A stretch of DNA of 43,144 nucleotides from a virus: IMG/VR virus record IMGVR_UViG_3300028840_003297, positions 1 to 43,144 of that record, one strand, 5' to 3'. The notes beneath the pieces were generated by a model. It was not told the DNA's origin. It saw nothing but the letters and a program-made list of their open reading frames with translations, and searched no databases. Positions 2,337-10,117 of this stretch are shown here, piece by piece. Numbering within the stretch: position 1 is the stretch's first letter; each line of letters starts with the position of its first letter. A program made the position numbers and the translations under genes.

Positions 2337-4550
2337 ATGGCCATAAGTTGGACATTCAATCCATTTACCGGCACGCTTGATGCCATCTCTAGTGAAGCAG
2401 CTGATCTAGCAACACATATAGCTGACAGTACTAATCCGCATTCAGTCACGTTCACTCAATCAGTTGCAGCCGATGGAGCTACAGACATTTCAGCTGCAGA
2501 AGCAGAAGAGCTTACTGACGGCAGTGTAACATCACTTCATTCACATGCAGGCGGCGGATACACCGATGAAGATGCTCAAGATGCAGTAGGAACCATCCTT
2601 ACAGATACAACTACAATCGACTTCACTTACACTGATGGTGCCCCCACAATTGAAGCAGATGTTATCCCTGGTGGAGTAGATCACAACAGTCTCGACAACC
2701 TCGATGTCGGTGACGTTCATACTCAATATTTAAATGAAACTCGTCATGATGGGCTCGCTTCTGACAATCCTCACTCAGTGACTTTCACTCAGGCAGTAAC
2801 AGCTGATGGCACTACAGACATTTCTGGAGCAGAAGCTGAGACTTTAACAGATACAAGTAATGCGGATGCTCTTCATGAACATGCTGCAAGTAATATTACA
2901 GTCGATGACACTAATTTCACATGGTTTAGTTCCACGGATCAACAATCTTGGGATGAAGAATTAGATGCGTTCCTATTCACTATTTATCCACCAGCTGAGC
3001 AGTTGGACGACATGGACATAGATACTTCGGGAGTATCAGGAAAATTGTCATTTGGTGCAAGTAATTCAGTTCCTGGATACACAAATTGTAGTGGCATCGG
3101 TTCTCGTCCTGCAGTAGATATCAATGAAGCTTTCAATGACAGTGGTGATAGAGCTGGCATCTTTACAGGTAGTGCTGATTGGACCGGAACTCTCAATGAA
3201 GATGCGGCTAGTACTGATAATTACCCGGCTAATAGTTTTAGGGATATAGGACAAACACTTTACTTAGAACTTAACGGGACAATAGTTCGTACATTAGATT
3301 TATCAAGTGAGACTGGTGCAGTTAATGATGGTACTAGTACAAGTGGATTCAACATCATTGCAAAAACACAAGGAACGGATACGCCTTTCTTTTATAGGAC
3401 GGGTTCTTACAGAATCGACTCGGGTGATGTTAATTTAGTCTCGGGCTGGAACTATTGTAGGGTATATGACAATCAGGGAACTCCACAAAGTACCAACTAC
3501 GTAGATTGGATTAAGGATGTAGATTATACTAACGCTACATCATTCAGTGGTGAAACGTTAGATAATCTTTCTATGGCGGGATCGAAATGGTTGAGCGGCG
3601 TGCAGTGGTACACCTCAGGAGACGCCGATTATGATATTACAATTTCTAACGCATACAGAAATTCCTATAGTTCTAGTGCAAGTGCTCTCAATTATAGCGG
3701 CACTAACTGTACTGCGAGTGATTCATCTATTCCTAATATGAGTGATGAAACAGATGACATCACAATCACAAATAAGACAGTTACTATCAATGCCACAAGA
3801 TTAGTTGATGGTGACATCAGTATGGAAGTTCAAGTAGATAGAACTTTGGCTTCTGATTTAACTTCTACTGGAGCTACTATTTCTAGTATCTTGATGGATA
3901 ATGCATCAGCTTCTCCGACTGATACGTATGATGATTTCGATGATGAAGGCTACAGACTGCCTTCTAATTTTAGTATTACTTCTACTTCTTATTCTTCTGG
4001 CCCAAATAACGGCCCTGTAACTTGGGACGAAACAATCTCCCTGATCAGTGCAACAGCAGGTTATAGCGATGGACTTCAAGTTGTTAACGACAGAGTCGAG
4101 TATCCCGATTATGATTGGTCATCAGTTACCTATCAACCAGGAACTGCTCCTAATTATACTACTGCTAGTGGTGATCGTGTTTATATTAGATACTTTTACA
4201 ACGCTTCTTCCAGGCAGAATTTCCTTTTTAATTTTAATGTCACTTCTTCTACTTTTGTTAGTGTTGCTACTGGCCCTAGTTCTAACAATATAACTTGTGA
4301 ACTCTTGGCACCAAATACTACACAAGATGGAGTAGGTACAATTGAGTGGAAAGACGCTGTCACAGCCTACACAGACGATGATTCTATAGGGTGTTACAGC
4401 TCATCAGTAGGTAGCACCATTCCTACCAATTGGGGTGTAACTTTGGGGACAAGATCAACCTCAACTTCAGGATATGCATGGTGCATTCGTATAACAGCAG
4501 CAGCAGCTTGGGCAGGGAGGATAAATAGTGTCACTTGTTCACCTCAGTAA
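2337..4550 (+). CDS. Tail fibre protein with repeated NPHSVTF module
   Basis: A 737-aa, Ser/Thr/Asp/Gly-rich protein with few charged residues and no enzyme motifs, typical of a trimeric phage fibre. Residues about 33-75 and 141-188 are two copies of a module (NPHSVTFTQ..ADGxTDIS.AEAE.LTD followed by LHSH or LHEH), and a third copy is in the next fibre gene. Between them YTDEDAQDAVG and TIDFTYTDGAPTIEA match a segment common in marine-type phage fibres. The C-terminal two thirds is beta-rich and is the likely receptor-binding part. The 3' end overlaps the HNH gene by 23 nt. Fibre role is inferred from composition and repeats. Confidence 0.75.
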   Translation: MAISWTFNPFTGTLDAISSEAADLATHIADSTNPHSVTFTQSVAADGATDISAAEAEELTDGSVTSLHSHAGGGYTDEDAQDAVGTILTDTTTIDFTYTDGAPTIEADVIPGGVDHNSLDNLDVGDVHTQYLNETRHDGLASDNPHSVTFTQAVTADGTTDISGAEAETLTDTSNADALHEHAASNITVDDTNFTWFSSTDQQSWDEELDAFLFTIYPPAEQLDDMDIDTSGVSGKLSFGASNSVPGYTNCSGIGSRPAVDINEAFNDSGDRAGIFTGSADWTGTLNEDAASTDNYPANSFRDIGQTLYLELNGTIVRTLDLSSETGAVNDGTSTSGFNIIAKTQGTDTPFFYRTGSYRIDSGDVNLVSGWNYCRVYDNQGTPQSTNYVDWIKDVDYTNATSFSGETLDNLSMAGSKWLSGVQWYTSGDADYDITISNAYRNSYSSSASALNYSGTNCTASDSSIPNMSDETDDITITNKTVTINATRLVDGDISMEVQVDRTLASDLTSTGATISSILMDNASASPTDTYDDFDDEGYRLPSNFSITSTSYSSGPNNGPVTWDETISLISATAGYSDGLQVVNDRVEYPDYDWSSVTYQPGTAPNYTTASGDRVYIRYFYNASSRQNFLFNFNVTSSTFVSVATGPSSNNITCELLAPNTTQDGVGTIEWKDAVTAYTDDDSIGCYSSSVGSTIPTNWGVTLGTRSTSTSGYAWCIRITAAAAWAGRINSVTCSPQ

Positions 4551-4995
4551 GCGTTTGTTAAATAAACGTAAGATAAAGAATGGGTGTTGGGAGTGGACTG
4601 GCGCAACCAGTAAAGGATATGGACAAATAAAATTGTGGGGAATTGTGCCTAAAATGGTTTATGTTCATAGACTTGCAGCTAAAATATGGTTAGGTTTTGA
4701 TATAAACAGTAAACATCTCGTATGCCATCATTGTGATAACACAAAGTGTTTCAATCCAGACCATTTATTTATAGGTAACCATGCAGATAATTCACAAGAC
4801 ATGTTAAACAAAGGGAGAGGAAATTTTTTAAAAGGAGAGCAAAATTCACAATCTAAGCTAACTAAAATTGATGTTTTAAATATAAAGGAATTAATTAAAA
4901 CTGGAACATTAAAAACAGTTATTACACAAAAATTTAATGTGTCAAAAGGTTTAATTACTGCCATTACTAAAGGTAGAGCTTGGAGGCATATCTAG
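4528..4995 (+). CDS. HNH homing endonuclease, inserted among fibre genes
   Basis: A 155-aa freestanding HNH endonuclease. The N-terminal domain contains WEWTGATSKGYGQI, VHRLAA and CHHCDNTKCFNPDHLFIG, i.e. the HNH beta-beta-alpha-metal core with CxxC-like knuckles. The C-terminal third (about 108-155) is a recognition-type helix-turn-helix ending VSKGLITAITKGRAWRHI, as in many phage HNH homing enzymes. Base composition is foreign: the line 4861-4920 has 11 G+C in 60. The GTG start lies inside the end of the upstream fibre gene, and the last codons carry GGAGG, the ribosome site of the next fibre gene. It is a mobile gene fitted precisely between two related fibres. Confidence 0.9.
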   Translation: MSLVHLSKRLLNKRKIKNGCWEWTGATSKGYGQIKLWGIVPKMVYVHRLAAKIWLGFDINSKHLVCHHCDNTKCFNPDHLFIGNHADNSQDMLNKGRGNFLKGEQNSQSKLTKIDVLNIKELIKTGTLKTVITQKFNVSKGLITAITKGRAWRHI

Positions 4996-6941
4996 TGGCT
5001 TTTGATACGGACAATTTAGCCAAAGCAGCAATGAAAAAACTCTTTGGCAAAGCTCACACTGGACCACCAGTAGGAGAAGGCGGCACTAAAGACTTACCCA
5101 ATGAGTCTGTGGCCTCAAGTACAACTGTCGCCTCCTCTACTGTCTACGGAGAATCCATACCACTAACTCCACCAGGTGCATCCACTTCAGCCATTCGAGT
5201 ATGTACTTCTGGAGTCGAAGGTGAACTCGATCTCACTGAAGATGGAAGTTCTAACGGTAATACTTATTATGTGACTGTGCCGACTGGACATGATCTACTT
5301 TCATATACTAATCCTGAGACAGGTTCTAACTATCAAGTAGATGAACGAGTTCAAAATATAATCCCTGCTTCTTTTGGTTCTGGCTATCGTCCTATACCTA
5401 AAGATAACGGCACCGAGATTCCACCGACTGACGCAAGCGACTGGTTCTTGGATGATAAAGCTGGCACTCTAACATCGGAAACAGATCTCAGCCTTAGCAC
5501 CACTGGAACCATCGCTTGTTATGTTTATGTCGGTGACATGGTTAGTGACCACATCGAATCAACTTCCAATCCGCACACAGTTACTGTAAGTCAGGCATTA
5601 ACGGCTGACGGAGCAACCGATGCAACCGCTGCAGAATTAGAAGAACTCACTGATGGCAGTACCACAACACTGCATTCTCATTCAGGTGGAGCTGGAACTC
5701 CTGGTGGCAGTGACACTCAACTTCAATACAATGATGGTGGATCTTTCGGAGGATTATCTACTCTAACTTGGGATGATACAGATTTTCTGTTGGGATCTGC
5801 TACAACTACCAAACTTCAATTTAGAGATCCCGGTCTATATATCAATTCTTCTACGGATGGACAACTTGACATTGATGCCGACACTGAAGTTGAAGTGACC
5901 GCACCTACTGTCGATATCGATGCATCAACTGCAATGACTATCGATACAACCAATCTAAACGTCACAGCTACTGTTGCTGTAACGGGCAATGTGTCCTGTG
6001 ATGAATTAGCTGTAGGTGATGAAGAAGCCATCAAACTTGGCAACAACACTGATGCACAAATGCAGTGGGAAAATGGCTCTACCAATGATTCTTTAGTATT
6101 AGGTTTAGGTGTAGGTAGTGCTGCTCAAAGTGGTTTCTTTTCTATCATGGAGAAGGGCGATATTGGTAACTCTTCTCGTGAACCTGCAGCAACTACTGCC
6201 AATCCAACACTAAGAGTATATTCAGCTGATCAAACACAATCATTAGATTTCATCCAGATGTATCATAATCAAACAGATGCATTTTTAGAGTCCGGTAATG
6301 GTGACTTAAGACTTAAGTTCACTACCGGTGAAATGGAAATAGATCCTAACAATATTATCTTTGATGCTGATGAAGCTAATGATGGTGATTTAAGAATTGA
6401 TACACTGACTGCAGCTAGGACATGGACACTACCTGACATTACAGGAACCATAGCCCTGACTGCAGATAACGATAGTTTTGAAGTACCTAATGGTGCCGGA
6501 GGTACTACTGTAGATACAGCTGGTGAGGTGACAGTAGACACAACGAGCGACACCTTTAATTTCCATGACGGCACCGCAGAAAGAGTGCTGTCTCCTATAG
6601 TATCTAAATCTATTACCATAGAAGATCCCGGCTCAAGTGAGGATCTTTCTATGTTTTATGCTGACGAGGCAATGACCATCACTAAGATGGTTGCAGTTCT
6701 TGTTGGCTCATCTACTCCTTCAGTCACTTGGACAGTGCGTCATGGTGCAGATCGCAGCGCCGCCGGAGCGGAAGTTGTCACAAGTGGTACCACCACAACA
6801 AGTGTCTCGACGGGTTCTGTTGTAACTAGTTTTAACGATGCTACTGTTGTAGACGACAGTTTTGTTTGGCTTGAAACTACTGCCCAATCAGGAACAGTAG
6901 ATGAAATACATTTAACAGTGTTCTATAGACAAGATGCTTAG
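4995..6941 (+). CDS. Tail fibre protein, paralogous module to the upstream fibre
   Basis: A fibre-type protein of 648 aa. GTG 4995 is chosen because GGAGG at 4982-4986 lies 8 nt upstream; a TTG 15 nt earlier is less likely. The N-terminal 35 residues (NLAKAAMKKLFGKAHTG) are helical, possibly a particle anchor. Residues about 190-235 repeat the NPHTVTVSQ.LTADGATD..AAELEELTDG..TLHSH module of the upstream fibre. The middle is a beta-rich Thr/Asp shaft. The last 110 residues (SITIEDPGSSEDLSMFY onward) form a compact beta domain, probably a head or chaperone-like tip. It starts on the last base of the HNH gene. Confidence 0.72.
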   Translation: MAFDTDNLAKAAMKKLFGKAHTGPPVGEGGTKDLPNESVASSTTVASSTVYGESIPLTPPGASTSAIRVCTSGVEGELDLTEDGSSNGNTYYVTVPTGHDLLSYTNPETGSNYQVDERVQNIIPASFGSGYRPIPKDNGTEIPPTDASDWFLDDKAGTLTSETDLSLSTTGTIACYVYVGDMVSDHIESTSNPHTVTVSQALTADGATDATAAELEELTDGSTTTLHSHSGGAGTPGGSDTQLQYNDGGSFGGLSTLTWDDTDFLLGSATTTKLQFRDPGLYINSSTDGQLDIDADTEVEVTAPTVDIDASTAMTIDTTNLNVTATVAVTGNVSCDELAVGDEEAIKLGNNTDAQMQWENGSTNDSLVLGLGVGSAAQSGFFSIMEKGDIGNSSREPAATTANPTLRVYSADQTQSLDFIQMYHNQTDAFLESGNGDLRLKFTTGEMEIDPNNIIFDADEANDGDLRIDTLTAARTWTLPDITGTIALTADNDSFEVPNGAGGTTVDTAGEVTVDTTSDTFNFHDGTAERVLSPIVSKSITIEDPGSSEDLSMFYADEAMTITKMVAVLVGSSTPSVTWTVRHGADRSAAGAEVVTSGTTTTSVSTGSVVTSFNDATVVDDSFVWLETTAQSGTVDEIHLTVFYRQDA

Positions 6942-6950
6942 GAGGAAGTT

Positions 6951-7196
6951 ATGCCTATTAGCCCCGCGCTAGAAACTGCAATTGGTCTTAAGATTGAGAT
7001 GCTTGATGAACAGATCAATAAGATCTATGCGAAAGTGAATACGCTAAAACGTCTTATCGACGATGATATCCATATTGATGATGCAATCTTGGCCATAGAT
7101 GCAGGCTTTGATTTAAATGCTATGTATGCTGACATAGTTGTCAGATGCCAAAATTATATTCAAACTGAAGCTCAATATATTGCAGACAATATATAA
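6951..7196 (+). CDS. Hypothetical helical protein in the fibre cluster (81 aa)
   Basis: An 81-aa protein with an excellent ribosome site (AGGAGG, 5 nt before ATG). It is almost wholly helical, with a heptad-like stretch at residues 9-37 (TAIGLKIEMLDEQINKIYAK) and an acidic IDDDIHIDDAI segment. It lies between two fibre genes and shares its final A with the next ATG (TAATG), so it is made together with them. A role as adaptor or assembly factor of the fibre would fit; no family is recognised. Confidence 0.6.
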   Translation: MPISPALETAIGLKIEMLDEQINKIYAKVNTLKRLIDDDIHIDDAILAIDAGFDLNAMYADIVVRCQNYIQTEAQYIADNI

Positions 7197-8515
7197 TGGC
7201 ATCTACACTCCCTGCAGATTCACTGCCTTTGTGGCCGTCTACTCATGCGAGTATCCCTGCCAATCACACTAGGCAGACGGCGTTCGATGAAAAGATGCTT
7301 CAAGGTGATGATAGTGGTTACAGTGGTCCAACAAATGGTGGATCTAGTTCACTACATGTCCATGAAGTTACCTCACATACTCATACAGAAACCAGTACGG
7401 GACACCAGCATTATTTTTCTGCTGCTTCAACTTCAATGGCATCTGATTCTGAAACAACCTCCCCTAAACCTACATCCAGATATACAATTAGATGGTCGCA
7501 TTATCATGTATCTAAGCGTTCATCAGCTAAAAATATTGTGACAGGTTCTTCTACTGCATTTGACTCTACTAGTGCTGTAACAGACGACTATCCTCCACAC
7601 CTTGAGTGTATCGTTTTGCAGCCAGACGATGGTTCTCAAAATATAGCCAATGGTGTGTTAGGCTTTTATAACGGCACATCGGCTCCTACCAACTTTACTA
7701 TTGCAGATGGCACTGGTGGGACAGTTGACTGTGTAGATAAATATATCAAAGGTGCAGACACAGGAAGTGGTAATGGCGGTAGCAGTTCCGGCTCAGCCTC
7801 GCACACACATAATTCTGCATCTCATACGCATACGGCAGACCATACGCATTATGGTATCTCGTGCGGTTCAGCTAATACAACATCAGGGTATAGCCCTTTA
7901 AGTTATCCTCCACCACAAACCATGGCGTATGCTCATCATGTTGTAAGCATGGGACTAACCAGTGGACAGGTCACAAGTGGTGCCTCGCCTTCAAGTGATT
8001 CTGAAGACAATGACCCAAAATCAAAATACATGTTAGCGATTCAAAACGTTTCAGGTTCTGCTCAAGCTCCTCCTACAGGGTATGTTATTGCTTATGATGG
8101 TAGCATTGGAGCTATCCCTTCTGGCTGGCAGTTGTCTGACGGAACAAATGGAACTGAAGATTTACAAGATTATCAAATTAAAGGCACCGACACTGGCGGC
8201 GAAGTTGGTGATGTTGTAAATTCTTCAAATTCCCACACCCACACATTTGCTCATACACATACATTTTCTAGTCACAACCATTCAGCTGGAGTGAGCGGCA
8301 ATTATTATGGTGTTAATACTAGATCAGGTATGACTTTTACAGATGCCGCTGCTTCTCACACACATACCTGGACAGTTAATAACTCCACTCCTGCAATTAG
8401 TGATAGTGATTCTACTGCGAGTGAGTCTGTTGACATACGGCGTGAATATAGAACTATAGTTTGGATACAAAAAGTAGACGTGGTTGTGTCCAGAAGGGTG
8501 ATGGTGATCTCATGA
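7196..8515 (+). CDS. Tail fibre/collar-like protein with HxH metal-binding repeats
   Basis: A 439-aa protein built from three similar blocks of about 130 residues, each with a globular part (e.g. SIGAIPSGWQLSDGTNGT, LQDYQIKGTDTGGE) followed by a His-rich string such as SHTHTFAHTHTF or SASHTHNSASHTHTADHTH. HxH runs of this kind occur in tips of T4 and lambda-group fibres, where trimers bind metal ions along the axis. The C-terminus (REYRTIVWIQKV) also matches collar-like fibre ends. Probable distal adsorption protein. Its stop overlaps the next ATG (ATGA), coupling it to the synthetase-like gene. Confidence 0.75.
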   Translation: MASTLPADSLPLWPSTHASIPANHTRQTAFDEKMLQGDDSGYSGPTNGGSSSLHVHEVTSHTHTETSTGHQHYFSAASTSMASDSETTSPKPTSRYTIRWSHYHVSKRSSAKNIVTGSSTAFDSTSAVTDDYPPHLECIVLQPDDGSQNIANGVLGFYNGTSAPTNFTIADGTGGTVDCVDKYIKGADTGSGNGGSSSGSASHTHNSASHTHTADHTHYGISCGSANTTSGYSPLSYPPPQTMAYAHHVVSMGLTSGQVTSGASPSSDSEDNDPKSKYMLAIQNVSGSAQAPPTGYVIAYDGSIGAIPSGWQLSDGTNGTEDLQDYQIKGTDTGGEVGDVVNSSNSHTHTFAHTHTFSSHNHSAGVSGNYYGVNTRSGMTFTDAAASHTHTWTVNNSTPAISDSDSTASESVDIRREYRTIVWIQKVDVVVSRRVMVIS

Positions 8516-9132
8516 ATTTTAAAGTGATAGATAAATACTTTCTAACTGAAGCAATGAGGATGGGAGCGATAGAAGAACATCTAGATAACAGAGTTGTTCA
8601 TACATTTGAAGATATTCATTTAAAATGTGGTGAGCCTGTACATAGCTGCTGCATATCTATTTTTGATTGGCTTAAAGACAGAACTGTTAAAGACTATATA
8701 GGCACCATACTCAACCGTTGCCACCGCCCTAAAGAAGGTAAGGATCATTTTGAATATGATATTTTTACAATGAGAGAAATGGTGTGGGCCGGTAACCATA
8801 AGCTAAATGATTCTGTCTTTAATCGAGTTATGGAATGGTTAAAGTTTGATGAGTTTCTTCCTAACAGTAGGATTGTTAGAGCAGAAGATTTCTTTATTGA
8901 AGCTGGCAAGCATGATCCTCACCAACTTAAATATGAACTTCAAAGTTACATAGATAGTCAATGGATAGCTATTGCATCTGTAAATATGCATGGAACATTT
9001 TTAAGTGAAAAATATGACATTAAACTTGAAGACGGTAACCATGCGTTCACTGGATGTTTTGGTATCGGATATGAACGACTTGCGCACGCTTACCTTGCAG
9101 AGGCCAAACGCCTAGAGCTGCAAGGAATATGA
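8512..9132 (+). CDS. Class II aminoacyl-tRNA synthetase-like protein (amino acid:[carrier protein] ligase-like)
   Basis: A 206-aa protein from ATG 8512, overlapping the fibre stop as ATGA. Residues 181-190 (GCFGIGYERL) match class II synthetase motif 3, and 70-94 (CHRPKEG...FTMREMVWAG) resemble the motif 2 region of archaeal-type SerRS and SerRS-like amino acid:[carrier protein] ligases, including the conserved MRE-V-x-x-G. Cys46/47, Glu89 and Cys182 are placed where those enzymes hold a zinc ion (Cys-Glu-Cys). A tRNA-binding coiled coil is absent, so it is unlikely to charge tRNA by the canonical route; activation of an amino acid as adenylate and transfer to another acceptor is the working idea. 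It is shorter than known family members, and no carrier protein is recognised nearby. Confidence 0.7.
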   Translation: MNFKVIDKYFLTEAMRMGAIEEHLDNRVVHTFEDIHLKCGEPVHSCCISIFDWLKDRTVKDYIGTILNRCHRPKEGKDHFEYDIFTMREMVWAGNHKLNDSVFNRVMEWLKFDEFLPNSRIVRAEDFFIEAGKHDPHQLKYELQSYIDSQWIAIASVNMHGTFLSEKYDIKLEDGNHAFTGCFGIGYERLAHAYLAEAKRLELQGI

Positions 9133-9178: not shown

Positions 9179-9703
9179 ATGGCACAAGCAAATGGAACAG
9201 TACCAAACGAAACTTATAACATGGACATCGTGACTTTGTGCAGATACTTGGATCGCTTCGTATTTGAAGTGTGGAAAGCAGTATCAGCTAATTTCTCAGA
9301 CACAAGTGATTATGATGCAGAAAGGCTCAACGCATATCTTGAGCGCCTAAGAGGTTACCACGCATTCTGCCAAAGCGTACCTCTTCTAGACCTACCAGAT
9401 TCTTCACCTTGTTTGTATCAACTGCAAGAACCTCACGACACAAGCACATGTGAAAATGAAGCTTCTGACCACATGATCAGAATTCTTCAAAGAGGTAGAC
9501 TAGAACTAGTAGCAAGTCAGAGTAGTCGTCGTAGTAATGGATTGCAAAGCCATGACTCAATTAGGCTTCTTGCCGTTATCGAACGCGCCCAGAATTTCCT
9601 CGATAACTACATCATTCCATTGCAACCAACTGACCTTCCAGAATCAACACCTCATAGAGATATGACTGGACACGGCCGCACTGGCGTAAGCCAAGGATCG
9701 TAA
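9179..9703 (+). CDS. Hypothetical protein (174 aa)
   Basis: A 174-aa, largely helical protein with strong ribosome site (AAAGGAG, 7 nt before ATG) and its own promoter. No domain is recognised. The N-terminal 70 residues are amphipathic (CRYLDRFVFEVWKAVSANF), residues 95-150 are helical with a SHDSIRLLAVIERA stretch, and the tail is Pro/Gly/His-rich and probably disordered. First gene of the operon leading to the hairpin at 10094; expressed independently of the fibre genes. The DSI serine superficially resembles a carrier-protein site but the surrounding fold does not, so I do not call it one. Confidence 0.65.
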   Translation: MAQANGTVPNETYNMDIVTLCRYLDRFVFEVWKAVSANFSDTSDYDAERLNAYLERLRGYHAFCQSVPLLDLPDSSPCLYQLQEPHDTSTCENEASDHMIRILQRGRLELVASQSSRRSNGLQSHDSIRLLAVIERAQNFLDNYIIPLQPTDLPESTPHRDMTGHGRTGVSQGS

Positions 9704-10093: not shown

Positions 10094-10117
10094 GGGGCCT
10101 TCGGGCCCCACTTTTAA
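10094..10117 (+). terminator. Rho-independent terminator with TTCG tetraloop
   Basis: Perfect 6-bp GC stem GGGGCC (10094-10099) / GGCCCC (10104-10109) closed by the very stable TTCG loop, followed by ACTTTTAA. It lies 8 nt after the stop of the 126-aa gene. The T run is short, so some read-through is likely. Confidence 0.8.

Follow-up and report, generated by a model that had tools for sequence, protein, structure and literature searches.

The window, which is the whole 43,144-base virus record IMGVR_UViG_3300028840_003297, encodes a 206-amino-acid protein whose gene overlaps a fibre gene and which, by sequence comparison, belongs securely and beyond chance to the superfamily of zinc-dependent SerRS-like class II catalytic cores. 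An earlier note made from the raw sequence had described a synthetase-like protein at this place, and that observation, which is not an obvious one, is confirmed. The best reading of the sequence is that the protein was probably acquired and derives from the lineage of either the bacterial amino acid:[carrier protein] (aa:CP) ligases or the archaeal-type SerRS. With a little less than even confidence, we propose that it is a compact, highly diverged core that would bind a small amino acid through zinc, form the adenylate and transfer the aminoacyl group to a different nucleophile.

The record carries a tailed phage gene set (PolA-type polymerase, primase, Sak4-like protein, exonuclease, portal and major head protein), and no tRNA genes were found in the window. 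The synthetase-like frame (Table 1) is open, and its ATG lies within an ATGA whose TGA (8513-8515) is the stop codon of the fibre frame, as the earlier note had read it. The sole in-frame upstream start is a TTG at 8461, within the fibre gene, and the next gene downstream begins at 9179 with its own ribosome-site-like AGGAG. The description of the synthetase-like protein as fused to the fibre genes by translation coupling holds in part: the four-base overlap may couple their translation, but the genes are not fused. With a GC3 of 0.28 and a CAI of 0.76, the synthetase-like gene resembles the fibre and structural genes (GC3 0.26-0.29, codon adaptation 0.73-0.75, values slightly favoured because most of these genes were in the codon reference set), the replication genes having values of 0.35-0.44 and 0.66-0.71. 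The codon use therefore marks it as a resident coding gene of the phage, of late type, and it is probably expressed together with the fibre genes.

Table 1. Positions in the window of the synthetase-like gene, its fibre neighbours and the segments discussed in the text.
Feature	Position	Strand	Evidence
Compact SerRS-like / aa:CP-ligase-like class II core protein, 206 aa	8512..9132 (including stop)	+	Profile, motif and structure-model evidence
Tail/fibre protein, 439 aa, upstream, four-base overlap with the synthetase-like gene	7196..8515	+	PHROG 5795 tail protein, E 9e-18
Fibre-like protein, 653 aa, further upstream	4980..6941	+	Context
Residues 3-16, N-terminal helix, tentatively the motif 1 helix	8518..8559	+	AlphaFold helix and MAFFT alignments; weak
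Cys47 codon, aligned with zinc ligand Cys131 of Bll0957, invariant in 40 relatives	8650..8652	+	Alignment
Motif 2 first strand and loop: Cys70, Arg72 and Phe85 kept; Lys74 and Glu81 substituted	8719..8766	+	Alignment
FTMREMVWAG, motif 2 second strand with putative zinc ligand Glu89	8764..8793	+	Alignment
Phe127-Lys140, shortened, the presumed carrier-protein-contacting segment in Bll0957	8890..8931	+	Alignment/spacing
Ala155-Ser156-Val157-Asn158, the pocket's invariant Ser and Asn	8974..8985	+	Alignment
GCFGIGYERL, motif 3, with putative zinc ligand Cys182 and Arg189, residues 181-190	9052..9081	+	Alignment

Other features of this region were also noted. The fibre-like proteins encoded at 2337-4550 and 4980-6941 have a common 50-amino-acid element (64% identity), which is partly repeated once more within the first of them, and an HNH endonuclease gene (4528-4995, GC 0.32) lies between the two frames. 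At 10094-10109, the hairpin GGGGCCTTCGGGCCCC is followed by ACTTTTAATG, a terminator-like arrangement that closes the small cluster of genes behind the synthetase-like one.

The best NCBIfam match of the 206-residue protein was the aa:CP ligase model NF005479 (E 1.6e-12, 47.0 bits), and the archaeal-type SerRS models NF002120 and TIGR00415 matched with E values of 1.1e-10 and 1.2e-6 (SerRS score 40.7 bits). Both scores fall far short of the family cut-offs (47 versus 357 bits for the aa:CP ligase and 40.7 versus 611 bits for SerRS), and the former cut-off was also missed by several cellular relatives. Against PDB sequences, phmmer retrieved the SerRS of M. barkeri (2cim, E 3.6e-5) and of M. 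kandleri (8e-5), and Bll0957 of Bradyrhizobium japonicum, an aa:CP ligase (0.03-0.09). A scan of a genome collection returned 80 bacterial relatives, and a hold-out HMM built from 40 of these, with the phage protein left out, scored it at 90 bits, whereas 2000 shuffled versions reached 6.7 bits at most. Together, the profile matches and the hold-out score make the superfamily-level assignment secure; searches of Pfam, PHROGs and PADLOC were uninformative for it. In a 41-row tree, its branch measured 4.8 changes per column, compared with a median end branch of 0.26, which is too long for the donor lineage to be placed.

Retention of residues on this branch is selective. When positions with the same residue in at least 39 of 40 relatives were taken as near-invariant, the phage protein kept 18 of the 24 near-invariant positions, compared with 35 of the 121 less conserved ones, and such selective retention on so long a branch argues that the putative amino-acid pocket stayed under selection. 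The two motifs that had been read from the letters alone, GCFGIGYERL and MRE-V-x-x-G (residues 87-94), are present, as are the residues proposed as a zinc site (Cys46/47, Glu89 and Cys182), with Cys47 being the cysteine in register, so that the alignment yields a Cys-Glu-Cys triad as a putative metal site. In Bll0957 numbering (chain number minus 20, taken from the alignment), Cys131, Arg159, Phe172, Glu176, Cys279 and Arg286 correspond to Cys47, Arg72, Phe85, Glu89, Cys182 and Arg189 of the phage protein; we take Cys131, Glu176 and Cys279 to be the zinc ligands of Bll0957. Both class II "arginine tweezers" are kept, Arg72 in motif 2 and Arg189 in motif 3, and so are the invariant Lys140, Glu142, Ser156 and Asn158. 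Class II enzymes are described as having this pair of arginines without exception, the motif 2 residue binding the carboxyl of the amino acid together with the alpha-phosphate of ATP, and the motif 3 residue binding the adenine and the gamma-phosphate (PMC8821087).

Of the six near-invariant residues that are missing, two form the Phe-Pro pair of motif 1 and one is a Leu just ahead of the zinc Cys; the other three are Glu161, Arg168 and the Pro of DPFF. Lys74 stands in place of the motif 2 Glu161, with Glu75 out of register by one residue, and Glu81 stands in place of Arg168 in the motif 2 loop; Glu161 and Arg168 are both invariant in the 40 relatives. The earlier note had named absence of the class II fold, or loss of the ATP-binding arginine and glutamate, as evidence against its proposal: a class II fold is predicted and Arg72 and Arg189 are in place, but the motif 2 Glu and the loop Arg are gone. 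Only 27 residues separate Ala19 from Cys47, compared with 42-75 in relatives, and the Phe-Pro segment after motif 1 is absent. Asp7, Phe10, Gly18 and Ala19 match the family consensus in MAFFT alignments, a weak agreement since the N-terminal helix lies outside the HMM local match. Dimerisation is normal in the SerRS-like family, and it is doubtful for the phage protein because this segment has been lost. Further along, the spacing from Phe128 to Lys140 is 11 residues, compared with 15-17 in relatives, and several presumed carrier-contact residues of Bll0957 that all 40 aligned relatives have were lost.

The earlier note had suggested structure prediction against SerRS-like ligases. AlphaFold2 with a 41-row alignment predicted a class II fold (pLDDT 85.3, pTM 0.83), for which the best Foldseek matches were M. 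barkeri SerRS (E 1.9e-11) and Bll0957 (E 8.3e-10). The single-sequence model was poor (pLDDT 33), indicating that the fold call draws on the homologues and does not count as evidence separate from them. A viral model library contained a few other short proteins with the same predicted fold, namely K7QJG2, A0A141HRQ2 (217 aa) and A0A6J5M2P2 (222 aa); compact class II-like phage proteins are therefore not unique. Like the phage protein, these are single compact viral domains of 185-222 residues, but no sequence match to the 206-residue protein was found, and none of the data searched contained another compact phage protein with the SerRS-like set of zinc residues and arginines. K7QJG2 of phAPEC8 is probably phAPEC8_0088 (190 aa), an identification that relies on length and on PHROG 4806, 'histidyl tRNA synthetase'. 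The sequence of phAPEC8_0088 (Escherichia phage; locus L188, 31932-32504) has no recognisable zinc, arginine or other class II motifs, and this protein is probably a degenerate phage relative of the class II fold. Geobacillus virus E3 was considered as the carrier of A0A141HRQ2 and dropped, as nothing supported it.

No relative was found among 50,697 phage records save MT835751, apparently a mislabelled bacterial contig. This record (MT835751.1, 'Bacteriophage sp.') was rejected as a phage relative because it looks like a bacterial biosynthetic locus, in which a 377-amino-acid full-length aa:CP-type ligase is accompanied by transporter-like membrane ORFs, a transposase-like ORF and a gene for a carrier protein. 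Scans of IMG/VR with the single protein, with alignments and with gapped motif 2-to-motif 3 patterns recovered no relative, these scans needing exact short matches that distant relatives can escape; the window itself was matched as the positive control for the gapped patterns. The synthetase-like gene was not found in 50 records with the same capsid gene, many of them fragmentary. Seven long genomes of related phages had no counterparts of the genes between the fibre region and 11282 except short fibre fragments and an HNH match, and the gene therefore lies in an accessory region. A weak profile match in five related phage loci (E about 0.1-0.2) proved to be a coiled-coil-like protein with a membrane tail and was set aside. 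In the literature searched, amino acid activation by a phage enzyme for purposes other than translation was not described.

Compact cellular relatives were also sought, and 17 of 150 genomes of one phylum gave matches, all in longer frames of 253-477 residues. Cellular relatives adjoin carrier proteins, and some adjoin glycosyltransferase, surface-sugar or natural-product genes. One relative, IE339_RS24175 of Priestia koreensis (locus L004, 5917-6552), is annotated with 211 residues; its frame is open well upstream and encodes the missing motif 1 region (SIDNLNKNNYHKNFPQN), so that the annotated start is probably too late. Another, from a Ramlibacter MAG with four matches to the query, occupies a 546-residue frame (locus L107, 1957-3594) and adjoins a protein with PP-binding and thioesterase domains.

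In the function that we propose, we infer that a zinc ion in the pocket would hold a small amino acid, that the aminoacyl-adenylate would be formed using Arg72 and Arg189, and that the aminoacyl group would be handed to a nucleophile other than tRNA or a typical carrier protein. This is the most likely reading given the homology, the predicted fold, the zinc triad with both arginines, the selective retention and the intact frame with phage-like codons. The amino acid activation suggested in the earlier note thus stays plausible with both arginines kept, but the replacements of the motif 2 Glu and loop Arg count against it, as do the doubtful dimerisation, the tie of the fold model to the homologue alignment and the single known copy.

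The same losses lead to the main rival. The protein may be a pseudoenzyme that retains the class II fold and the zinc-dependent pocket but would make no adenylate; it would instead sense amino acids, serve as a decoy or regulate a partner in the way that HisZ serves HisG. Motif 2 has lost two invariant residues while Arg72 and Phe85/Glu89 remain, motif 1 is degraded, the branch is very long, and a phage protein of the same predicted fold, probably phAPEC8_0088, lacks recognisable motif arginines. Class II paralogues without adenylation or aminoacylation do exist, as in HisZ and SLIMP (PMC9437257). Against this, most near-invariant positions are retained, and the presence of Arg189 would be puzzling in a protein that does not use ATP, because the motif 3 arginine contacts ATP in known enzymes. 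On these residues, adenylate formation is rated slightly ahead, with the pseudoenzyme appearing nearly as likely.

That the protein is a late-infection enzyme stripped down nearly to the class II core, coupled through the overlap to receptor-binding genes and aminoacylating a target that is neither tRNA nor carrier (for example a sugar on the host surface, a host protein or the fibres of the phage itself), is a specific and rather unlikely version of the proposal. Slimmer is the prospect of a working aa:CP ligase acting on a host carrier protein, by which the carrier would be diverted or a surface modification that alters the phage receptor would be fed. The score slightly above that of SerRS and the carrier proteins and glycosyltransferases beside cellular relatives would fit such an enzyme, but the usual partner genes are absent, and a search for the PF00550 (PP-binding) carrier domain, of the kind suggested in the earlier note, gave no match across the 43-kb record at E 10, whereas control genomes gave matches. 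In addition, natural Bll0957 and the carrier-complexed engineered Bll0957 (4h2w) differ in the segment after DPFF, which we take, partly on the basis of work on Bll0957, to be its carrier contact; because this is the segment that is shortened in the phage protein, whereas Bll0957 itself is long here, carrier docking may be impaired. With no carrier found in the window and a shortened docking segment, carrier-protein charging, including the host carrier suggested earlier, is less likely than in the relatives.

A role tied to the virion, as fibre chaperone, minor structural part re-using the fold or modifier of fibre residues, is less probable still: the overlap with the fibre gene and late-gene-like codon use would suit it, but overlapping genes are common in phages, a chaperone or structural part leaves the zinc triad and both arginines unexplained, and no positive evidence was found for the modification of fibres, of a carrier protein or of a peptide put forward earlier. 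A decaying, functionless fragment of a captured gene is highly improbable: the N-terminal and internal shortening relative to all relatives would suit it, but the frame is intact, the codons are phage-adapted and the pocket residues are selectively retained.

As a natural 206-residue, single-domain class II core that keeps the zinc pocket but has lost motif 1 and some of motif 2, the phage protein tests the minimum fold for amino acid activation, and it offers a concrete candidate enzyme for modifying targets with aminoacyl groups as phage and host interact; should it prove inactive, it would be a clean viral case of a synthetase pseudoenzyme.

Bll0957-type aa:CP ligases (PDB 3mey, 3mf1, 3mf2 and 4h2s; NF005479) resemble the phage protein in having a class II core without a tRNA-binding domain and Cys-Glu-Cys zinc residues, and Bll0957 shares with it the motif 2 Arg, the FxMRE strand, Lys/Glu, Ser-x-Asn and the motif 3 GxGxxR at about 25% identity. 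The phage protein is shorter (206 versus about 300 residues), lacks the Phe-Pro segment, the motif 2 Glu and the loop Arg, has a shortened carrier-contact segment and, unlike aa:CP ligases, is encoded without a neighbouring carrier protein. The family of these ligases has been predicted to help attach amino acids to cell-surface sugars (PMC2922099), a prediction that would also favour the carrier-charging alternative; use of such attachment by a phage, beside its fibres, is offered as a hypothesis only. Compared with the archaeal-type SerRS (M. barkeri 2cim/2cj9, M. kandleri 3w3s; NF002120, TIGR00415), the phage protein has altered motifs 1 and 2 and lacks the N-terminal tRNA-binding domain, in agreement with the earlier note, being a core only; because of this and because no tRNA genes were found in the window, tRNA charging is unlikely. 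The zinc site and a well-aligned C-terminal third are nevertheless common to both, and the archaeal-type SerRS is the best match of the phage protein by Foldseek and by single-sequence search of the PDB.
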